From: Coriobacteriia bacterium
Lineage (GTDB): Bacteria > Actinomycetota > Coriobacteriia > Anaerosomatales > PALSA-660
DNA: 17,794 nt
NCBI GenBank assembly: GCA_030652345.1
Contig: JAUSAU010000094.1
Coordinates: forward strand, 1 to 17,794
Direction: 5' to 3'
Under the pieces are notes generated by a model that was not told the origin of the DNA, did not search any database, and saw only the letters and a list, made by a program, of their open reading frames with translations. The translations under genes and the position numbers were made by a program. Positions 3,060 to 12,922 of the stretch are shown one piece after another; position 1 is the stretch's first letter, and each line of letters begins with the position of its first letter.

Positions 3060-3692
3060 GTGTCTGACGACACCGTAGTCAGCGGAGCTACCCCGGTCGC
3101 CGGGGAAGGAAGCTCACCACCGGCAGCGACGGGCGGTATCCGTGGCTTCTTCAAGACGACGCTGGGCCGCGTGCTTCTCATCGGTTGCGGCCTCGCGACG
3201 ATCCTGACGATCGTTGGCGTCGTCGTGGTGCTCGTGCTCGGAGCCACGCTCTTCGGGTCACTCAGCGATTCGCTGACCGGAGGCGCCGTGGTGTCCGATC
3301 CCGGCGCAGCCGCGCCGGGCGCATCGGTACCGGCCTCGGGCGCGCCGGGGGCGACGGTCTCCACCGTGCCGCCGCTTCCTCCGACTGACAACGAAGAGGT
3401 GTTCACCTTCCGCGATCCGTTCAAGCCGGTCGCCGCTCCGAAGAAGGTCGTCCCGGCAACGACCGGCTCATCGTCGGCACACGACAACATCCTGACGTTG
3501 ACTGACATCGTGACCGTGAGCGGCGCGCGCCGTGCGGTGCTGATGTACAACGGCACCACGTATACCCTCGGTCCCGGCGAGGCCGTGCCGGGCACGCCAT
3601 GGGAGGTCTACCAGGTCAACGCATCCAACGTGGTCATGTTGTATGGCGATGACCGCGTCACTCTGTCTGTCGGTCAGGGCATCTCGAAGTAG
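3060..3692 (+). CDS. PilP/GspC-like type IV pilus protein (putative)
   Basis: 210 residues. Seen: a disordered cytoplasmic N-terminus of about 36 residues, one membrane helix (about 37-61), a Pro/Ala/Gly-rich linker (about 75-110), the sequence FRDPFKP (117-123), and a small beta-rich C-terminal domain (about 140-210) ending LSVGQGISK. The RDPF-type motif before a small beta domain is typical of PilP and of the GspC homology region, which bridge the PilN/PilO platform to outer components. PilP is usually a lipoprotein, but here a membrane helix replaces the lipobox, so the match is structural rather than close. The GTG start is well supported by AGGAGG at 3045-3050 with a 9-base gap. It is the last gene of the pilus block. 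Confidence 0.65.
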   Translation: MSDDTVVSGATPVAGEGSSPPAATGGIRGFFKTTLGRVLLIGCGLATILTIVGVVVVLVLGATLFGSLSDSLTGGAVVSDPGAAAPGASVPASGAPGATVSTVPPLPPTDNEEVFTFRDPFKPVAAPKKVVPATTGSSSAHDNILTLTDIVTVSGARRAVLMYNGTTYTLGPGEAVPGTPWEVYQVNASNVVMLYGDDRVTLSVGQGISK

Positions 3693-3777: not shown

Positions 3778-3792
3778 ACGGACGTGGTGCCC

Positions 3793-3800
3793 GGGAGGAG
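3793..3800 (+). promoter_or_regulatory. Ribosome binding site fixing the aroC start
   Basis: GGGAGGAG lies 7 bases before GTG 3808. This excludes the more upstream in-frame GTG codons at 3784 and 3787, which precede it. Confidence 0.75.
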
Positions 3801-3807
3801 TCGGTCA

Positions 3808-4953
3808 GTGGAGTACCGTACCGCAGGCGAATCGCACGGACGGGCACTCGTCGCTCTCGTGACGGGCGTGCCGGCCGGCATCGCCCTGTCCTCCGAGGCC
3901 ATCGATGCCGATCTTGCTCGCCGCCAGGCGGGCTACGGGCGCGGTGGCCGGATGGCGATCGAGAGGGACCGCGGCCTGATCCTGTCCGGCGTGCGTTTCG
4001 GTTCGACCATCGGTAGTCCCGTCGCCATCACGATAGCGAACCGTGACTGGGACAACTGGACCGACGTGATGTCCGTGTGCGGCGACGCCGACGGGGCCCG
4101 ACGGGTCACCGCGCCGAGGCCCGGTCACGCCGACCTCGCCGGTGCTCAGCGTATCGGTACGGACGATGTCCGAGACATCCTCGAGCGCGCGAGTGCGCGT
4201 GAGACTGCGGCTCGTGTCGCAGCAGGTGCGGTCGCGAAGGCGCTCCTCGCCGAGTTGGGCGTCCGCGTCTGGTCGTGGGTGGAGTCGATCGGGGGCGTCG
4301 CAGCAGGCCCGTGGGACGCCGCGGAGATCGATATCGCGCTGGTCGAGTCCAGTGACGTGCGGTGTCCGGAACCCGGTGCAGCAGCCGAGATGCGCGCCGC
4401 GATAGACGCTGCGCGAGACGCCGGGGAGAGCCTCGGCGGGGTCGTGGCCGTCGCAGCCGACGGTCTCGTACCCGGGCTGGGCTCCTACGCCGAGAGAGGG
4501 CGCGGGCTCGACGCACTGCTCGCCGGCGCCGTCATGTCGATCCCAGCCATCAAGGGCGTCGAGATCGGCGACGGATTCGCGGCCGCATCGCGACCCGGGT
4601 CGCGTGTGCACGATCCGATCGTGCGGCGCCCTGGCGGGTTGGCGCGGGCAACCAACCATGCCGGTGGCCTGGAGGGTGGCATGACGAACGGGGAGCCACT
4701 CATCCTTCGCGCGGCGATGAAGCCCATTCCGACGCTCATGACGCCGCTCGCGACGGTGGATCTGGAGTCCGGCGAGATCGCGGACGCAGCCCGTGAGCGC
4801 TCCGACGTCTGTGCGGTCCCCGCTGCGGGTGTCGTCGCGGAAGCGGAGGTCGCCATCGTTCTTGCCGATGCGTATACGAGGATGTTCGGCGATACCTGCA
4901 TCGAGGATATCCGCACGGCCATCGCTCGGTATCGCGAGCGCTGCCCGCGATGA
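3808..4953 (+). CDS. aroC: Chorismate synthase
   Basis: 381 residues. It converts 5-enolpyruvylshikimate-3-phosphate to chorismate, the last shikimate-pathway step, with reduced FMN. Seen: the N-terminal signature YRTAGESHG with catalytic His10, the FMN/substrate region GRGGRMAIERDRG (44-56), NRDWDNW (78-84), RPGHADL with the second catalytic His107, the signature ERASARETAARVAAGA (126-141), and near the C-terminus GGMTNGEPL and MKPIPTL. The family normally begins M-x-Y-R-T-A-G-E-S-H-G, which together with the ribosome binding site selects GTG 3808 over GTG 3784. The gene is first in a tightly coupled operon and overlaps aroK by 4 bases. Confidence 0.97.
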   Translation: MEYRTAGESHGRALVALVTGVPAGIALSSEAIDADLARRQAGYGRGGRMAIERDRGLILSGVRFGSTIGSPVAITIANRDWDNWTDVMSVCGDADGARRVTAPRPGHADLAGAQRIGTDDVRDILERASARETAARVAAGAVAKALLAELGVRVWSWVESIGGVAAGPWDAAEIDIALVESSDVRCPEPGAAAEMRAAIDAARDAGESLGGVVAVAADGLVPGLGSYAERGRGLDALLAGAVMSIPAIKGVEIGDGFAAASRPGSRVHDPIVRRPGGLARATNHAGGLEGGMTNGEPLILRAAMKPIPTLMTPLATVDLESGEIADAARERSDVCAVPAAGVVAEAEVAIVLADAYTRMFGDTCIEDIRTAIARYRERCPR

Positions 4954-5462: not shown

Positions 5463-6568
5463 GTGGTGCAGTGGTACATGTCGCCGTGCCGGGTGGTGCC
5501 TACGAGGTCCGTGTCGGCCCGGGCGAACTCGATCGACTGGGTGATTCAGCGCGTGCCGTCTTCGACAGGTCGTCGTGCGCCCTCGTCACCGATTCCCGTG
5601 TCGCGCCGCTGTACGCCGACCGTGCGGAACTGTCACTGCGCTCCGTCGGTCTCGACGTAATCAGGCTCACCGTCCCGGCGGGAGAACGGACGAAGGATTG
5701 GGCGCGGGCGGGACGACTCCTGGAGTCCATGTCGGATGCAGGTCTCGGGCGGGACGCGTTCGTCGTGGCGCTCGGTGGCGGAGTCGTCGGCGACCTCGCC
5801 GGCTTCTGCGCCTCTGTCTACCTGCGAGGACTTCCTGTCATCCAGGTCCCGACCACGCTGCTCGCCCAGGTGGACAGCGCGATAGGCGGGAAGACCGGCG
5901 TGGACCTCCCGCGCGGGAAGAACCTCGTCGGGTCCTTCTGGCAGCCGGCTCTCGTCGTCTCGGACACGGACCTGCTTTCCACCCTGCCGGAGGTCGAGTG
6001 GCGCAGCGGGCTGGCCGAGGTGGCGAAGTCGGCGTTCCTCGCTTCCGACGAGGCCGTCCGAGGGCTCGAGGCCGATGCGACGGACCTGCTCGCGCGTGAG
6101 GCCACAGCCGTGGCTCGCGCCGTCGCGATGTCCGCGGGACTCAAGGCGGAAGTGGTCTCGGGTGACGAGCGTGAGTCGGCGGATCGCGAATGCCTCAATC
6201 TCGGTCATACGCTCGCGCACGCGCTCGAGCGCGAGCTCGGGTACGGTACCATCACGCACGGTGCTGCGGTCGCCGAGGGACTGCGCTTCGCGGCCGCCGT
6301 CTCCGAGCGTGTCGCCGGTGTCACGCCGGGCTGGGGGAGGCGGCAAGGCGATCTCCTCGACTCCCTGGGCCTCGAGTCCGCCGGTGCCGCGTGCGGACTG
6401 GCCGACCTGCTCGGCGCCATGGGATCGGACAAGAAGGTCAGAGCGGGCCGCATCCGTTTCGTGCTCTCCACCGGACCGGGCGCGTGGTGCGTCGAACCGG
6501 TCGATGGTGATGTACTCAGCGATCTGCTCGAGGTGTACTGTCAGGAGTCGACAGGAGGCGAGCGATGA
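5459..6568 (+). CDS. aroB: 3-Dehydroquinate synthase
   Basis: 369 residues. It converts DAHP to 3-dehydroquinate, using NAD and a metal ion. Seen: the NAD-binding loop [13 protein letters not shown] (104-116), [19 protein letters not shown] (131-149), the substrate region [11 protein letters not shown], and the metal ligands Glu187 (GLAEV), His250 (LNLGHT) and His267 (ITHGAA). The family's usual NFGHTxGHAxE reads [11 protein letters not shown] here, a mild change with both histidines kept. The start is GTG 5459, overlapping the aroK stop by 4 bases. It ends in an ATGA overlap with aroQ. Confidence 0.97.
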
Positions 6569-7008
6569 TGAGAGTGCTTGTGGTGCACGGCCCGAATCTC
6601 AACATGCTCGGCCGCCGGGAACCCGGCGTGTATGGCACGGCCACGCTCGCCGACATCGAATCGGCGCTCGTCGTGCTCGCGGATGAACTCGGGTGCGAGG
6701 TCGCCTTCTTCCAGAGTAACCATGAGGGTGAGATCGTGGACCGGCTTCAGCGCTCTGAGGACGATGCCGACGCGGTCGTTATCAATCCCGGGGCTCTCAC
6801 CCACTACAGCTACGCAGTCAGGGATGCCGTCGCCGCCATCGGGATTCCCGTGGTCGAGGTGCACCTGTCCAACATCCAGGCGCGCGAGGCGTTCCGTCGC
6901 GAGAGCGTGGTCGCTCCGGCCTGCGTCGGCCAGATCTCCGGTTTCGGGCCCGGCTCCTACCTTCTCGGACTGCGCGCTGCCGTCGAAGCGGCCAAGGAGC
7001 GCGTGTGA
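6565..7008 (+). CDS. aroQ: Type II 3-dehydroquinate dehydratase
   Basis: 147 residues, typical of the small dodecameric type II enzymes. It dehydrates 3-dehydroquinate to 3-dehydroshikimate. Seen: [17 protein letters not shown] with catalytic Arg18 and Tyr23, [14 protein letters not shown] (49-61), [16 protein letters not shown] (73-88), and [15 protein letters not shown] with His100. AGGAGG at 6553-6558 precedes two consecutive ATG codons (6565 and 6568). Either could serve: spacing is 6 or 9 bases, and the first overlaps the aroB stop. aroE, aroA and a DAHP synthase are not in this window, so the operon covers only part of the pathway. Confidence 0.97.
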
Positions 7009-8134: not shown

Positions 8135-8160
8135 CGAGTGTGAGAAGGGACGAAGAGGCG

Positions 8161-8721
8161 ATGGCAGTCTCCACGAATCAGTTCAAGAACGGCATGTGCA
8201 TCTCCTACGACGGCAAGTTGTGGGTCATCGTCGAGTTCCAGCACGTCAAGCCCGGGAAGGGCGGGGCGTTCGTCCGCACCAAGCTCAAGGAGGTGCGGAG
8301 CGGCCGCGTGGTCGACATCACCTTCCGCGCCGGTGAGAAGATCGAAGACGTGCGCATGGAGACGAAGAACCTGCAGTACCTGTACAACGACGGCTCGGCG
8401 TTCCACTTCATGGACACCGCCACCTACGAGCAGTTCGAGCTCGCTGCGGACTTCGTCGGCGAGACGGCCAAGTGGCTCAAGGAGAACGAGGAGGCCACCG
8501 TGCTCGTCGCGGGCGGCGACATGCTCGGCGTCGAGCCTCCCATGTTCGTCGACCTCGAGATCACCGATACCGACCCCGGCTTCAAGGGTGACACGGTGCA
8601 GGGCGGCACGAAGCCGGCGACGCTCGAGACCGGCGCCGTCGTCCAGGTGCCGATGTTCATCAACACCGGTGAGCGGATCAGGGTGGACACACGCGACGGG
8701 CGCTACGTCACGCGCGTGTAG
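8161..8721 (+). CDS. efp: Elongation factor P
   Basis: 186 residues, standard for EF-P. It binds ribosomes stalled at polyproline stretches and helps peptide-bond formation. Seen: the KOW-like N-terminal domain beginning STNQFKNGM, the exposed loop HVKPGKGGAF with Lys33 at the position of the modified lysine of E. coli EF-P, and two following OB-type domains ending with TGERIRVDTRDGRYVTRV. No lysine-modification gene (epmA/epmB) is nearby. ATG 8161 is chosen over GTG 8140 because family members begin just before STNxFKNG and AAGGGACGA (8145-8153) lies at useful spacing. Several Pro-Pro-rich proteins are encoded in this window (PilN, PilP-like), which are plausible EF-P clients. Confidence 0.97.
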   Translation: MAVSTNQFKNGMCISYDGKLWVIVEFQHVKPGKGGAFVRTKLKEVRSGRVVDITFRAGEKIEDVRMETKNLQYLYNDGSAFHFMDTATYEQFELAADFVGETAKWLKENEEATVLVAGGDMLGVEPPMFVDLEITDTDPGFKGDTVQGGTKPATLETGAVVQVPMFINTGERIRVDTRDGRYVTRV

Positions 8722-8735
8722 ACGCGTGTAGACGC
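8716..8735 (+). repeat. 10-bp tandem duplication at the efp stop codon
   Basis: GTGTAGACGC is present twice in direct tandem (8716-8725 and 8726-8735). The first copy contains the efp stop codon TAG (8719-8721). The repeat is preceded by the palindrome CACGCGCGTG (8709-8718) and creates a small 5-bp hairpin (8723-8727 with 8732-8736). It looks like a slippage duplication just beyond the coding end. No function is evident. Confidence 0.8.
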
Positions 8736-8774
8736 GCTCGAATACCCGCTGGCGCGCACGCTCGCATCCTCCGC

Positions 8775-8780
8775 TATACT
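8775..8780 (+). promoter_or_regulatory. Candidate -10 box upstream of the biotin carboxylase operon
   Basis: TATACT is a strong -10 hexamer in the 151-base efp-carboxylase gap. No clear -35 or TG extension accompanies it. Transcription would start near 8787, giving a leader of about 86 bases before ATG 8873. The naive in-frame GTG at 8783 would then lie at or before the transcript start. Nothing else is recognised in this gap apart from the tandem repeat. Confidence 0.45.
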
Positions 8781-8872
8781 TTGTGACTTACATCGCATCG
8801 ACGCGGTGTGCTCGACGCTACCCGCAGGGTGTGCGGCGAGAGGTACGAGGACCCGACAGGCCAAGGACAGCT

Positions 8873-10732
8873 ATGCGACCCGTTCGGATCATGGACACGA
8901 CACTGCGTGACGCGCATCAGTCGCTCTGGGCGACGCGCATGGAGATCGGCGACATGCTGCCGATCCTCGAGAAGATGGACAGCGCCGGCTTCTGGGCACT
9001 CGAGGTGTGGGGCGGGGCGACGTTCGACGCGTCCCTGCGCTTCCTCGATGAGAACCCTTGGGAGCGGTTGCGGACGATCAGACGGCACTGCCCGAACACG
9101 CCGCTGCAGATGCTGCTGCGCGGGCAGAACCTCGTCGGCTACCACCACTACTCCGACGAGATCAGTCGCCGTTTCATCCATGCGACCAAGCGCAACGGGC
9201 TCGACAACTTCCGGGTGTTCGACGCGCTGAACGACATCCGCAACGTCGCGGTCTGCGCAGACGCGATCAAGGAGTGCGGCGGGCTGTTCGAAGGAGCCAT
9301 CTCCTACACCGTCAGCCCTGTTCACACCCTGGACGGCTACGTCGAGTACGCCTTGGCGCTCAAGGAGCTCGGCGCCGACACGATCTGTATCAAGGATATG
9401 GCCGGCATGCTGACGCCGTACCGCACCGAGAAGATGGTGCGGGCCCTCAAGGAAGAGGTCGGCCTGCCGGTCCACGTGCACTGCCACTACATCGGTGGCA
9501 TGGCGCCCATGAACTACCTCAAGGCGGTCGAAGCGGGCGCGGATATCATCGACACCGCTGTCGTCGCGCTGGCCTTCGGGAACAGCCAGCCCGCGGTCGA
9601 GATGATCGTCGCCGCTCTCAAGGAGTCGGAGTTCGACACGGGCCTCGATCTGGACCTGCTCTTCGAGATCGCCGAGTACTGGGAGGGCGTGCGCGAGCGC
9701 AAGAAGCTCAAGCGCGGCATCACAACCCTGCTGTCCATGGAGGTCTTCTCGCACCAGGTCCCCGGCGGGATGATGAGCAACCTCGTCAGCCAGCTCGAGA
9801 TCCAGAAGGCGTCCGATCGGCTGCCCGACGTGCTGACCGAGATCCCGAAGGTGCGTGCCGAGGTCGGCTATCCGCCGCTCGTGACTCCGCTGTCACAGAT
9901 CGTCGGCACCCAGGCCGTCCTCAACGTGCTGACCGGGAAGCGCTGGAGCGTCGTGCCGCGCGAGATGAAGGACTACATCCGCGGCCTGTACGGCAAGGCT
10001 CCGGGCCCGATGAACAAGGAGCTTGTCGCACGCGTGCTTGGCGGTGAGGAGCCGCTCGCCGCGGACATCCGACCCGGCTCACTCGAGACGATGACGTACG
10101 CCGAGGTCGAAGCCGAGATCGGGGACCTCGCGAAAAGCGAGGAGGACGTCCTGATGTACGCCCTCTTCCCGAATGAGGCGAGGCAGTACCTTTCCAAGCA
10201 CAAAGAGGGCGCCGAGAAGGCGGTCTTCATGCTCTCCGAGGAGATCGATACCGTCAGGGAGGACGAATCCGTGGACGTGAACCAGATCCGCGAGCTTATC
10301 AAGATGGTCGAGTCGTCCGATGTGACCGAGGTGGTCGTCGAAGAGAACGGTGCGACCGTCACGGTGCGCAAGGGCGGACACAGCGTGGTCGGTGCTGCAT
10401 CGGTCGCGGTCGCGGCACCCGTAGCCGCCGGTACGCCGGCGGCGCCCGCGGCGGATGCCGCCCCGGCGCCGGGGGCCCGGCCCGCGTCCTGGAAGGCCGT
10501 CACCTCGCAGATGGTCGGGACGTTCTACCGCAGGTCGTCACCCGCGTCGGAACCGTTCGTGTCGGTCGGGGTGACCGTCGAGGAGGGGCAGACCATCTGC
10601 ATCCTCGAGGCGTTCAAGCTCATGAACGAGATCGAGATGCCCGAGAGCGGGACGATCCGCGAGGTCGTTCCCGAAGACGGCTCGCTGGTCGACTACGGGC
10701 ACGTACTCTTCTACTACGAGCCGGTGGCGTAG
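8873..10732 (+). CDS. Carboxyltransferase (OadA/PycB type) fused to AccB-type biotin carrier
   Basis: 619 residues. Residues about 2-265 form the HMGL-like carboxyltransferase barrel. LRDAHQSLWATRM supplies metal ligand Asp13, CIKDMAG the active-site Lys174 (carbamylated in relatives), and VHCH the ligands His203 and His205. Residues about 285-465 match the conserved PYC/OADA domain (YPPLVTPLSQIVGTQAVLNV). From residue 467 the protein is a complete AccB-like BCCP: the N-terminal DVNQIRELIKMVESSDV, an Ala/Pro linker (about 501-543), and a biotinyl domain with MVGTFYRRSSP and ILEAFKLMNEIE. The biotin lysine is Lys582, with Phe and Leu in place of the usual flanking Met. With AccC downstream it would form a two-subunit pyruvate carboxylase, or act in oxaloacetate decarboxylation; which one is not decidable here. 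ATG 8873 follows AAGGA (8863-8867); the upstream GTG 8783 is rejected. Confidence 0.92.
   Translation: MRPVRIMDTTLRDAHQSLWATRMEIGDMLPILEKMDSAGFWALEVWGGATFDASLRFLDENPWERLRTIRRHCPNTPLQMLLRGQNLVGYHHYSDEISRRFIHATKRNGLDNFRVFDALNDIRNVAVCADAIKECGGLFEGAISYTVSPVHTLDGYVEYALALKELGADTICIKDMAGMLTPYRTEKMVRALKEEVGLPVHVHCHYIGGMAPMNYLKAVEAGADIIDTAVVALAFGNSQPAVEMIVAALKESEFDTGLDLDLLFEIAEYWEGVRERKKLKRGITTLLSMEVFSHQVPGGMMSNLVSQLEIQKASDRLPDVLTEIPKVRAEVGYPPLVTPLSQIVGTQAVLNVLTGKRWSVVPREMKDYIRGLYGKAPGPMNKELVARVLGGEEPLAADIRPGSLETMTYAEVEAEIGDLAKSEEDVLMYALFPNEARQYLSKHKEGAEKAVFMLSEEIDTVREDESVDVNQIRELIKMVESSDVTEVVVEENGATVTVRKGGHSVVGAASVAVAAPVAAGTPAAPAADAAPAPGARPASWKAVTSQMVGTFYRRSSPASEPFVSVGVTVEEGQTICILEAFKLMNEIEMPESGTIREVVPEDGSLVDYGHVLFYYEPVA
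10257..10263 (+). promoter_or_regulatory. Internal Shine-Dalgarno inside the fusion gene
   Basis: GGGAGGA lies 7 bases before the in-frame GTG 10271 and codes for part of V-R-E-D in the long protein, using the AGG arginine codon. The 12-mer CAGGGAGGACGA (10255-10266) recurs exactly in the dxs ribosome binding region (13456-13467). It marks a plausible internal translation start or the relic of a once-separate accB gene. Confidence 0.6.
10271..10732 (+). CDS. accB: Candidate nested biotin carboxyl carrier protein (AccB), in-frame internal start
   Basis: The last 153 codons of the fusion gene, read from GTG 10271, would give a free BCCP beginning M-D-V-N-Q-I-R-E-L-I-K-M-V-E. This aligns with the true N-terminus of ordinary AccB proteins (E. 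coli begins MDIRKIKKLIELVE, recalled). Seen: strong Shine-Dalgarno at 7-base spacing, usual AccB length (about 150-160), the complete N-terminal segment, an Ala/Pro linker and the biotinyl domain with lysine at position 116. Known: AccB carries biotin for acetyl-CoA carboxylase and pairs with AccC. Context: accB normally lies directly before accC and after efp in related gene orders. Inference: either an active alternative start or a relic of fusion. The short protein has not been shown to be made. Confidence 0.5.
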   Translation: MDVNQIRELIKMVESSDVTEVVVEENGATVTVRKGGHSVVGAASVAVAAPVAAGTPAAPAADAAPAPGARPASWKAVTSQMVGTFYRRSSPASEPFVSVGVTVEEGQTICILEAFKLMNEIEMPESGTIREVVPEDGSLVDYGHVLFYYEPVA

Positions 10733-10735
10733 CCG

Positions 10736-12097
10736 ATGCGCGAGTTCGGCAAAGTCCTCATCGCGAACCGCGGCGAAGTAGCGCTGCGGATCATCCGCGC
10801 CTGCAAGGAGATGGGGATCGCGACGGTCGCGGTCTTCTCCGAGGCCGATCGCGACTGCCTGCACGCGCGCATGGCGGACGAGGCGATCTGCGTCGGCCCC
10901 GCATCCTCCGCACTCAGCTACCTGAACGTGCCCAACATCATCTCGGCCGCGATCGCCACCGGTGCGAACGCGGTGCACCCGGGATACGGCTTCCTCGCCG
11001 AGAACGCGGGCTTCGCCCGTGCGTGTGAGGACAGTGGGATCACCTTCATCGGCCCCAAGCCCGATGCGATCGATCGCATGGGCGACAAGGCGGTCGCGAA
11101 GCAGACGATGAAGGAAGCCGGCGTCCCGACCGTGCCGGGCTCCGATGGTGCCGTCCACTCCGAAGAGGATGCACTCCGCTTCGCGGCCGAGGTCGGCTAC
11201 CCGGTGCTCGTGAAGGCGTCCTCGGGCGGCGGAGGGCGCGGGATGCGCGTGGCAGCCGACCCGGACGGACTCGTCGCGGGTATGCGCGCCGCGAAGGCGG
11301 AAGCCGCCGTCGCGTTCGGTGACGACACGGTCTACCTCGAGAAATATCTGACCCGGCCCCGGCACATCGAGATCCAGGTGCTCGCCGACACGCATGGCAA
11401 CGCGATCCATCTCTTCGAGCGCGACTGCTCGGTCCAGCGCCGTCACCAGAAGCTCATCGAGGAGTCGCCGTCCCCGGCGCTGACCGATGAGCAGCGCCGC
11501 GCGATGGGCGAGGCCGCGCTGCTTGCGGTGCGCGCCGTCGACTATGTCAACGCCGGTACGGTCGAGTTCCTGCTCGACGAGGACGGCTCCTTCTACTTCA
11601 TGGAGATGAACACGCGGGTCCAGGTCGAGCATCCGGTCACGGAGGCCGTCACGGGCGTCGACATCATCAAGGAGCAGATCCGTATCGCGGCGGGCTCCCC
11701 GATGCGCCATCCCGACCAGGCCGACATCGTCCAGCGCGGGCATGCGATCGAGTTCCGGATCAACGCGGAGGACCCCTCGAAGAACTTCCGTCCTCATCCG
11801 GGCAAAGTCGAGGTCTTCAACGCCCCCGGTGGTTTCGGCGTCCGTGTCGACTCCCATCTGTACTCGGGTTACAGTGTCCCGCCGACCTACGATTCGCTGA
11901 TCGCGAAGTTGATCGTGTGGGGCGAGACCCGCTATGAGGCGATCAATCGCGCCCGCAGAGCGCTCGACGAGTTCATCATCGTCGGTATCCCGACCACGAT
12001 CCCGTTCCATCAGATGGTCATCGAGAACGAGTACTTCCAGCGGGGCGAGGTCTATACTGACTTCGTCGAAACGCACATCTTCAACGAGCAGGACTAG
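10736..12097 (+). CDS. accC: Biotin carboxylase subunit
   Basis: 453 residues, usual for AccC. It uses ATP and bicarbonate to carboxylate biotin on the carrier domain. Seen: the N-terminal KVLIANRGEVALRIIRA, AVHPGYGFLAEN (79-90), the ATP-grasp residues Lys118 and Lys160, the glycine-rich loop SSGGGGRGM (162-170), His210 in RPRHIEIQV, the metal ligands Glu277 and Glu290, and MNTRVQVEHPVTE containing Asn292, Arg294 and Glu298. It starts 3 bases after the fusion gene with little independent ribosome binding site, so coupling is likely. It is the only biotin carboxylase in the window, so it may serve both the fusion protein and any free AccB. The accA/accD carboxyltransferase genes are not here. 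Confidence 0.97.
   Translation: MREFGKVLIANRGEVALRIIRACKEMGIATVAVFSEADRDCLHARMADEAICVGPASSALSYLNVPNIISAAIATGANAVHPGYGFLAENAGFARACEDSGITFIGPKPDAIDRMGDKAVAKQTMKEAGVPTVPGSDGAVHSEEDALRFAAEVGYPVLVKASSGGGGRGMRVAADPDGLVAGMRAAKAEAAVAFGDDTVYLEKYLTRPRHIEIQVLADTHGNAIHLFERDCSVQRRHQKLIEESPSPALTDEQRRAMGEAALLAVRAVDYVNAGTVEFLLDEDGSFYFMEMNTRVQVEHPVTEAVTGVDIIKEQIRIAAGSPMRHPDQADIVQRGHAIEFRINAEDPSKNFRPHPGKVEVFNAPGGFGVRVDSHLYSGYSVPPTYDSLIAKLIVWGETRYEAINRARRALDEFIIVGIPTTIPFHQMVIENEYFQRGEVYTDFVETHIFNEQD
12053..12058 (+). promoter_or_regulatory. Possible intragenic -10 box before the asp23-nusB group
   Basis: TATACT, the same hexamer as at 8775-8780, sits near the 3' end of accC and is spelled by the codons TAT ACT instead of the G/C-ending forms favoured here. 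No -35 or TG extension is evident. It could drive asp23 and nusB independently. Weak evidence. Confidence 0.2.
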
Positions 12098-12138
12098 CCG
12101 AGATCACCCCGGATGCCGCGCGAAGGGACGATACCGCC

Positions 12139-12474
12139 ATGGCCACAGAACTGAGGCTCGACGGGCTGGATGTCGCACCGGGTGTGGTCGAGACCATAGT
12201 GCAGCTCGCCGCCGAGGCAGTCGACGGGGTCGCTGCCGTGGGGAACTCGCCGCTCGGCAAGATATCCAAGTCCGCGAAGACCGTCGAGGTGTGTCTCGAT
12301 GGCGACGGCAGTTTCGTGGTCACGCTGCATATGACCGCGAGCTACGGTCGCCCGCTGAGGCAGCTCGGCGCATGCGTTCAGGAGGCGGTCGGCGACGCGC
12401 TCCTCTCGCAGACCGGGCACGCCGCTTCCCGTGTCGATGTCTTCATCGACGGTATCCAGTTCCCCGAGCAGTAG
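12139..12474 (+). CDS. Asp23/Gls24 family protein
   Basis: 111 residues, a single Asp23 (DUF322) domain. Seen: the family pattern of an N-terminal strand followed by VAPGVVETIVQLAAEAVDGVAAVG, then alternating beta segments and a terminal helix with a VDVFIDGIQF strand. Members of this family are small, often membrane- or envelope-associated stress proteins without known catalysis. The copy between accC and nusB (YqhY in Bacillus, recalled) has been linked genetically to acetyl-CoA carboxylase activity. That fits this position and would support acetyl-CoA carboxylase function for the upstream biotin genes. AAGGGACGA (12123-12131) serves as the ribosome binding region. No membrane segment is seen. 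Confidence 0.88.
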   Translation: MATELRLDGLDVAPGVVETIVQLAAEAVDGVAAVGNSPLGKISKSAKTVEVCLDGDGSFVVTLHMTASYGRPLRQLGACVQEAVGDALLSQTGHAASRVDVFIDGIQFPEQ

Positions 12475-12490
12475 GGCCGGCTGACAACAG

Positions 12491-12922
12491 ATGCTCGAAC
12501 GACGCAAGGCCCGCCATCAGGCGCTCCACATCCTGTACCAGCGTGAGATCACCGACGACCAGGTGTCGCGCATACTCGCCGACGGCTCGTGGAGCGTCGA
12601 GGATGGCGCGCCATCCGACTTCTGCCGCGAGGTCATCACGGGTGTCGAGGCGCATCAGGCCCGGATCGACGCCATCATCGAGGACATCTCGGAGAACTGG
12701 GCGCTGTCGCGTATGCCGCTGGTCGATCGCAGCATCCTGCGTCTCGCGGTCTACGAGATGCTCTATCGCGAGGATGTCCCGGAGTCCGTCTCGATCAACG
12801 AAGCGGTCGAGATGGCCAAGGTCTACGGTGGGGGCGACTCGTCGAAGTTCGTGAACGGCATCCTGGGGCGGTTGGCTGAGGTAGCGGCCGCGGGCGGCTT
12901 CGAGGAGAGCGTCGATGAGTGA
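12491..12922 (+). CDS. nusB: Transcription antitermination factor NusB
   Basis: 143 residues, all-helical family of usual length. NusB binds boxA RNA with NusE (S10) and promotes antitermination on rRNA operons. Seen: the N-terminal RRKARHQALHILYQRE (RNA-binding basic face), the central NWALSRMPLVDRSILRLAVYE, and the C-terminal signature SINEAVEMAKVYGGGDSSKFVNGIL. The start ATG 12491 has no clear Shine-Dalgarno, and the gap to the preceding stop is 16 bases. Its last 8 bases overlap the xseB start, where folD and xseA would be found in the Bacillus order. Confidence 0.96.
   Translation: MLERRKARHQALHILYQREITDDQVSRILADGSWSVEDGAPSDFCREVITGVEAHQARIDAIIEDISENWALSRMPLVDRSILRLAVYEMLYREDVPESVSINEAVEMAKVYGGGDSSKFVNGILGRLAEVAAAGGFEESVDE

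Follow-up and report, generated by a model that had tools for sequence, protein, structure and literature searches.

A complete accB with a conserved candidate start codon of its own, nested in a carboxyltransferase gene of Coriobacteriia

Within the window (the whole stretch of DNA analyzed, 17,794 nucleotides) there is a gene in which a carboxyltransferase is fused in frame to a biotin carrier, and at their junction lies a Shine-Dalgarno sequence followed by a GTG codon, at the position where an ordinary AccB would begin. Does this gene make one protein or two, and what would the shorter one be for? The reading that we favor, at a probability of about 0.8 judged from sequence comparison, is that one gene would give two proteins, a long carboxyltransferase-biotin carrier and a free AccB made by internal initiation, with one AccC serving both enzymes. 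The features on which the argument turns are these, with positions in the window.

8140 to 8721, forward strand: efp, the upstream neighbor of the fused gene (three EF-P Pfam domains)
8873 to 10732, forward strand: fused gene of 619 amino acids, a carboxyltransferase of PycB/OadA type followed by a complete AccB (profile domains HMGL-like at residues 4-268, PYC_OADA at 291-470 and Biotin_lipoyl at 542-613)
10257 to 10263, forward strand: internal Shine-Dalgarno sequence GGGAGGA, duplex energy -11.1
10271 to 10273, forward strand: internal accB start codon GTG, codon 467 counted from ATG 8873 and in frame with the long reading frame
10271 to 10732, forward strand: nested accB, 153 amino acids (TIGR00531 and alignment to E. 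coli BCCP)
10511 to 10570, forward strand: thumb-like segment MVGTFYRRSSPASEPFVSVG (alignments to 4HR7 chain B and 5KS8)
10607 to 10618, forward strand: biotin attachment motif EAFK, with the presumed biotinyl-lysine codon at 10616-10618
10736 to 12097, forward strand: accC, biotin carboxylase, 453 amino acids (TIGR00514, 729 bits)
12139 to 12474, forward strand: asp23-like gene, downstream neighbor (PF03780)
12491 to 12922, forward strand: nusB, downstream neighbor (PF01029)

The fused gene and the accB within it

The ATG at 8873 is a chosen start for the fused gene, in a frame that is open from GTG 8783. The internal GGGAGGA is separated from GTG 10271 by seven bases (CGAATCC). The 153-residue product scores 143.0 bits against the TIGR00531 profile for BCCP (cut-off 115.2), with residues 1-149 lying on profile positions 1-154 of 156, and it aligns from residue 1 with E. 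coli BCCP (4HR7 chain B). The initial annotation was right in placing a Shine-Dalgarno sequence and GTG at the canonical start of an AccB of normal length.

A methionine before the biotinyl lysine is typical of AccB. The motif in the window is EAFKL, lacking this methionine, and the remaining 119 of the 120 closest proteins have EAMKL. Among the 142 aligned rows described below EAMKL is found in 139; one sequence is cut short (L044) and another has no clear motif (L060). We regard EAFKL as an isolated deviation, peculiar to the window, and do not take it as excluding the protein from AccB. A single sequencing error is an unlikely source, because the change from ATG to TTC takes two base changes.

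The thumb-like segment aligns without gaps to 4HR7 chain B, and seven of its residues are absent from the carrier domain of 5KS8. In the excerpt of PMC11926652 the thumb is described as a feature common to bacterial and plant BCCPs. The nested product is thus like the stand-alone E. coli AccB in its N-terminus, its thumb and a TIGR00531 score over the cut-off; unlike that protein, it is encoded inside, and in frame with, the gene for another enzyme.

The ATG of accC lies 3 nt past the stop codon of the fused gene, and its own Shine-Dalgarno sequence is weak (energy -5.1). The order efp-accB-accC-asp23-nusB is common in Bacillota. We infer that pycB was placed ahead of accB in such an operon and fused to it in frame, with the ribosome binding site and start of accB being kept. 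No sigma-70-like promoter was found within 8700-12200 by a test that is itself weak, and accB might still be transcribed separately. Elsewhere in the window there are a type IV pilus gene (pilM, 600-1736) and genes for aromatic amino acids (chorismate synthase, 3784-4953, and type II dehydroquinase, 6565-7008).

Among solved structures the full-length protein is closest to 5KS8 chain C, the beta subunit of a pyruvate carboxylase (490.9 bits), and the arrangement of an HMGL-like carboxyltransferase, PYC_OADA and a C-terminal carrier, with a separate adjacent gene for biotin carboxylase, is present as in two-subunit pyruvate carboxylase. An identity as the alpha subunit of a Na+-pumping oxaloacetate decarboxylase was rejected, on the ground that OadB (PF03977) was found in none of the 46 genomes of relatives that were searched and that the score of the fused protein against TIGR01108 (650.2 bits) falls under the cut-off of 756.5.

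Translation from ATG 8873 would yield the 619-residue protein, which with AccC would most likely be a two-subunit pyruvate carboxylase, and translation from the internal Shine-Dalgarno and GTG at 10257-10273 would yield the free 153-residue AccB. The enzyme of Methylobacillus flagellatus (5KS8), as far as the excerpt of PMC5059739 describes it, is alike in having carboxyltransferase and carrier in one chain and biotin carboxylase in a second. It is an alpha2beta4 assembly, and its BT-like domain uses the C-terminal helix of the alpha subunit (PMC5059739, same excerpt). AccC of the window ends 6 residues past the aligned core, whereas 5KS8 chain A runs 29 further, the BT-like helix being judged by length only. 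The carrier in the window also differs from that of 5KS8 in being a whole AccB, with the thumb and a start codon of its own. The long product and AccC may well form a pyruvate carboxylase of a different assembly from the 5KS8 subtype, perhaps through AccB-AccC contacts like those in acetyl-CoA carboxylase.

Conservation of the internal start

A scan of contigs confirmed 314 relatives, of which the best 80 were kept, giving 81 genes with that of the window. Most of these relatives are labeled Coriobacteriia or one of its orders, and some only Actinobacteria, Actinomycetes or another name. A class-wide sample of 296 genomes added more fused genes, and after six duplicates had been dropped there were 142 aligned rows. 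These still include one duplicate pair (L153 is the same as L061), and three further genes, L099 (accB part only), L115 and L137, had their starts read separately as ATG, GTG and GTG, respectively. Subtracting the duplicate and adding these three gives 144 distinct genes, window included. Synonymous steps were counted by the Fitch method on a protein tree from which residues 452-481 had been left out, using the 142 rows with their duplicate pair.

Codon 467 is GTG in 77 and ATG in four of the 81 genes, GTG in 124 and ATG in 18 of the 142 rows, and GTG in 126 and ATG in 18 of the 144 distinct genes taken as Coriobacteriia, with no other codon. At the protein level all 120 best relatives have valine here, 119 by pattern and one (P0107) by eye. 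The glutamate codon within the Shine-Dalgarno sequence (codon 463, at 10259-10261 in the window) is GAG in 81 of 81 genes and in all 142 rows. Codon 467 has undergone no synonymous step, whereas 35 other valine columns average 45.5 steps and none of them has fewer than 31. Five times this codon has changed state, each time between GTG and ATG. Codon 463 likewise shows no synonymous step, whereas 23 other glutamate columns average 24 and have at least 8 each. No six-codon stretch of the gene has fewer synonymous steps than codons 462-467.

The energy of the duplex with the anti-Shine-Dalgarno sequence has a median of -11.3 at the 81 internal sites, compared with -3.0 at 3507 other in-frame ATG or GTG codons; at the presumed own starts of the fused genes it is -8.9 (n = 79). 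About 1% of the 3507 codons reach the site median and 19.8% reach -5.8, the value of the weakest site, so that the weakest internal sites (about -6) are unexceptional taken alone. The usual distance of the Shine-Dalgarno core from the start is 8 bases, but in some genes it is 5 or 11. The conservation of start codon and Shine-Dalgarno sequence at the nucleotide level that is expected of a functional internal in-frame start is present. We consider this codon-level conservation in relatives to be the decisive evidence that the start exceeds chance, and on such comparative grounds internal initiation is strongly supported.

The fusion is not universal in the class, and some members have a stand-alone accB only (G236, G296 and G099, for example). 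A TIGR00531 match of any kind occurs in 242 of the 296 sampled class genomes and is not seen in 54. Ten loci with a stand-alone accB or one at a contig edge were examined, and no unfused pycB-accB pair was found among them. Eight adjoin an accC only 50-54% identical to that of the window, with no carboxyltransferase match nearby; the other two are contig edges, with accC, asp23, nusB and dxs behind accB. At the loci L089-L091 and L093-L097 the stand-alone accB of some Coriobacteriia sits beside another accC, and the fused gene is elsewhere or absent. Several of these loci lie near matches to accA and fabF.

Outside the class, 60 regions were taken from a phylum-wide sample, and those fused genes were counted whose identity to that of the window is 35% or more, 41 in all. 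Two of them match proteins named as from Candidatus Aquicultor and Candidatus Oleimmundimicrobium (both of class Candidatus Aquicultoria), where the fused orthologs again have the internal start. In a tree rooted on L207, the 142 sequences of the class group together to the exclusion of these 41 (support 0.87). The codon at the AccB start is ATG in 35 of the 41 and GTG in one, and is lost in five (CTT in two, ATA in two and a gap in one). Here and below a second match is any further match to TIGR00531 at an E value of 0.001 or better, not every one of which is confirmed as accB. The start is kept in 32 of 32 outside genes whose genomes have AccA (one a partial match) and a single TIGR00531 match, with Shine-Dalgarno energies of -6.6 to -12.7. 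The two ATA losses are sister genes in genomes lacking an AccA match; the three others (the sisters L205 and L206, and L207) have lost the start despite AccA, and each of these genomes has a second match. Of seven outside genomes with a second match, three have lost the start and four keep ATG; a tblastn search of the seven for accB near accA found none. Simple Fisher tests give 0.004 (3/7 versus 0/32) and 0.002 (2/2 versus 0/32), values that have only three separate loss events behind them and that take second matches in the broad sense just defined. Among 120 relatives of one outside gene (L188), 111 have methionine or valine at the start by pattern; eight of the remaining nine have methionine by eye, and one (P0235) has leucine.

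Left out of the 41 were L180 and L223-L228, which have no carboxyltransferase match, and 12 loci with a fused protein only about 27-30% identical (L181, L190, L202, L203, L208-L210, L213, L214, L216, L220 and L222). No strong start was found at the AccB N-terminus in these 12. In L202 and L208 a weak ATG precedes it by a few residues, and L210 has other in-frame GTG or ATG codons with sequences resembling a Shine-Dalgarno. They look like a different, distant kind of fusion.

Could the site be present for a reason other than initiation? The initial annotation had offered as its alternative that the start is a fossil of a recent fusion, a functionless remnant of a once-separate accB. The gene order, which suggests that the fusion arose within an efp-accB-accC operon, accords with such an origin. 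Yet fourfold sites differ by 33-73% in eight compared pairs of genes while codon 467 shows no synonymous change in the class, and fused orthologs with the start occur both inside and outside the class; we give this explanation almost no credence. It is also very improbable, if slightly less so, that the Shine-Dalgarno-like sequence is a ribosome pause site that aids folding and initiates nothing. Its position at the junction of two domains would suit a pause, but this leaves unexplained why codon 467 is only ever GTG or ATG (144 of 144) with no synonymous steps.

Gene content and the role of the short product

Would the cell need a free AccB? In a gene-content search of 46 genomes the fused AccB was found in all, and in 40 it is the sole TIGR00531 match. 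AccA is present in 37, PF01039 (a profile for AccD that takes in parts of AccA as well) in 38, and AccA without any AccB match besides the fused one in 31. The C-terminal domain of biotin carboxylase gives one match in 39 genomes, two in six and none in one. It follows from these counts that most of the relatives have the carboxyltransferase subunits of acetyl-CoA carboxylase without an AccB or AccC outside the fused locus, where absence of AccA, FabF or AccB is read from genomes of unstated completeness, some surely incomplete. Gordonibacter sp. An230, for instance, has AccA, and the fused AccB is its only AccB match. In genomes with no other accB the free AccB would be the carrier of acetyl-CoA carboxylase, charged by an AccC held in common with pyruvate carboxylase. 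The proposal of the initial annotation that one AccC charges both carriers is consistent with the single biotin carboxylase domain in most relatives and with AccA unaccompanied by another AccB; in the window's own cell the same sharing would be expected by extension from them.

The start is also kept where acetyl-CoA carboxylase would not require it. Within the class 33 genes with the start are in genomes that have AccA and a second match, and 30 in genomes where AccA was not found (G207, with a weak AccA match only, being scored among the latter), several of these also having no FabF match. Ten clades consist only of second-match or AccA-less genomes. In them codon 467 has no synonymous steps, whereas 37 valine columns average 8.7 and have at least 4 each; codon 463 has none either, whereas 23 glutamate columns average 5.3 and have at least 1 each. 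In the five second-match-only clades, codon 467 has none against a mean of 4.8 (minimum 1) and codon 463 none against a mean of 3.1, with one other glutamate column also at zero. Five AccA-less groups, the tree clade of one of which also holds an AccA-bearing relative, keep GTG or ATG and GAG; the products of the chances of retention are 0.012 for GTG (four groups) and 0.040 for GAG (five groups).

The start is constrained in these clades, and therefore supply of acetyl-CoA carboxylase is not the sole reason for it. Probably the short form has a role besides carrying carboxyl groups for that enzyme, perhaps in the assembly or stoichiometry of AccC or of pyruvate carboxylase. The initial annotation had proposed a free BCCP for fatty acid synthesis. 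The codon conservation argues for the free protein; fatty acid synthesis as its whole purpose does not fit a start that persists without AccA or beside a second match. A second accB together with an unconserved site, which would have spoken against the proposal, is not the pattern in the relatives, where the site is conserved even beside a second AccB-type match.

Among the genomes that carry the fusion, several (G031, G034, G035, G040, G043 and others) match neither AccA nor FabF, so that loss of fatty acid synthesis may have happened repeatedly.

Two further explanations accept that the site is used and differ over what it is used for. The main role of the short product might be structural, as a partner of the full-length protein, comparable to SctQ-C or Cas11, that sets the assembly of pyruvate carboxylase or AccC, and not as a carrier for acetyl-CoA carboxylase. 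This would suit the constraint in the second-match and AccA-less clades, the retention of GTG or ATG with GAG in the five AccA-less groups, and the keeping of the full N-terminal segment of AccB inside the fusion. Against it, the 31 genomes of 46 with AccA and no other AccB match imply that this gene should supply something to acetyl-CoA carboxylase, and outside the class every one of the five losses falls in a genome that either lacks an AccA match or has a second match. We think a mainly structural role unlikely, though it overlaps with the reading we favor and the odds of the two are not exclusive. Less likely again is that the long protein is the carrier for both enzymes and the internal site mainly feeds ribosomes to accC by translational coupling. 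Across the relatives the Shine-Dalgarno sequence of accC is weak (median energy -5.5 in the 70 of 81 loci with an assigned start), and in at least 47 of the 70 the accC start is 2-13 nt away from where the stop codon of the fused gene begins, which is what coupling would lead one to expect; on the reading that we favor, too, ribosomes entering at the internal start would raise AccC as well. But initiation there would also yield an AccB of normal length, the site is exactly at the canonical AccB N-terminus, and three loci with a strong Shine-Dalgarno sequence at accC (L048, L073 and L076) still keep the internal start.

A broader extension of the two-protein reading is tentative, and we would not put it as high as even odds. 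The nested accB would be an old device common to Coriobacteriia and Candidatus Aquicultoria, its free AccB acting as carrier for acetyl-CoA carboxylase and also being required as a partner in the AccC/pyruvate carboxylase assembly, and the second role would keep the start where fatty acids are no longer made or a second accB is present. If AccB does have this dual role, anaplerosis and lipid synthesis would be coupled through the proportion of long to short product.

Relation to known systems

Internal in-frame starts are already known. In SctQ/HrcQ one reading frame gives a full-length protein and, from an internal in-frame start that matters for function, its C-terminal part (excerpt of PMC8553256). 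Both of those forms belong to one machine, as far as the excerpt goes, whereas the products of the nested accB gene are proposed for two metabolic enzymes. Cas11, likewise a small protein, arises by translation from within cas8b (excerpt of PMC11899642); in contrast with the nested accB, the case set out in that excerpt has no fusion of two known enzymes, and the small product acts in the same complex. No description was found of an internal start yielding AccB in a literature search that left most subscription journals outside its range, and one gene serving two biotin enzymes was not found described.

If the two-protein reading is right, the carrier of a central lipid enzyme comes, in many members of a widespread class, from inside the gene of another enzyme. 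The short AccB would be easily missed under current names, and calls of a missing accB could be wrong. The nested gene would offer a clean system for studying the balance that a cell strikes between the two products of a single gene, and a column of valine and methionine that is only ever a start codon could serve as a simple test for other nested genes.

Where a public name is shown for these fusions of 600 amino acids, it is either 'acetyl-CoA carboxylase biotin carboxyl carrier protein' (NCBI) or the alpha subunit of 'oxaloacetate decarboxylase' (JGI), and either name misses one half of the protein.
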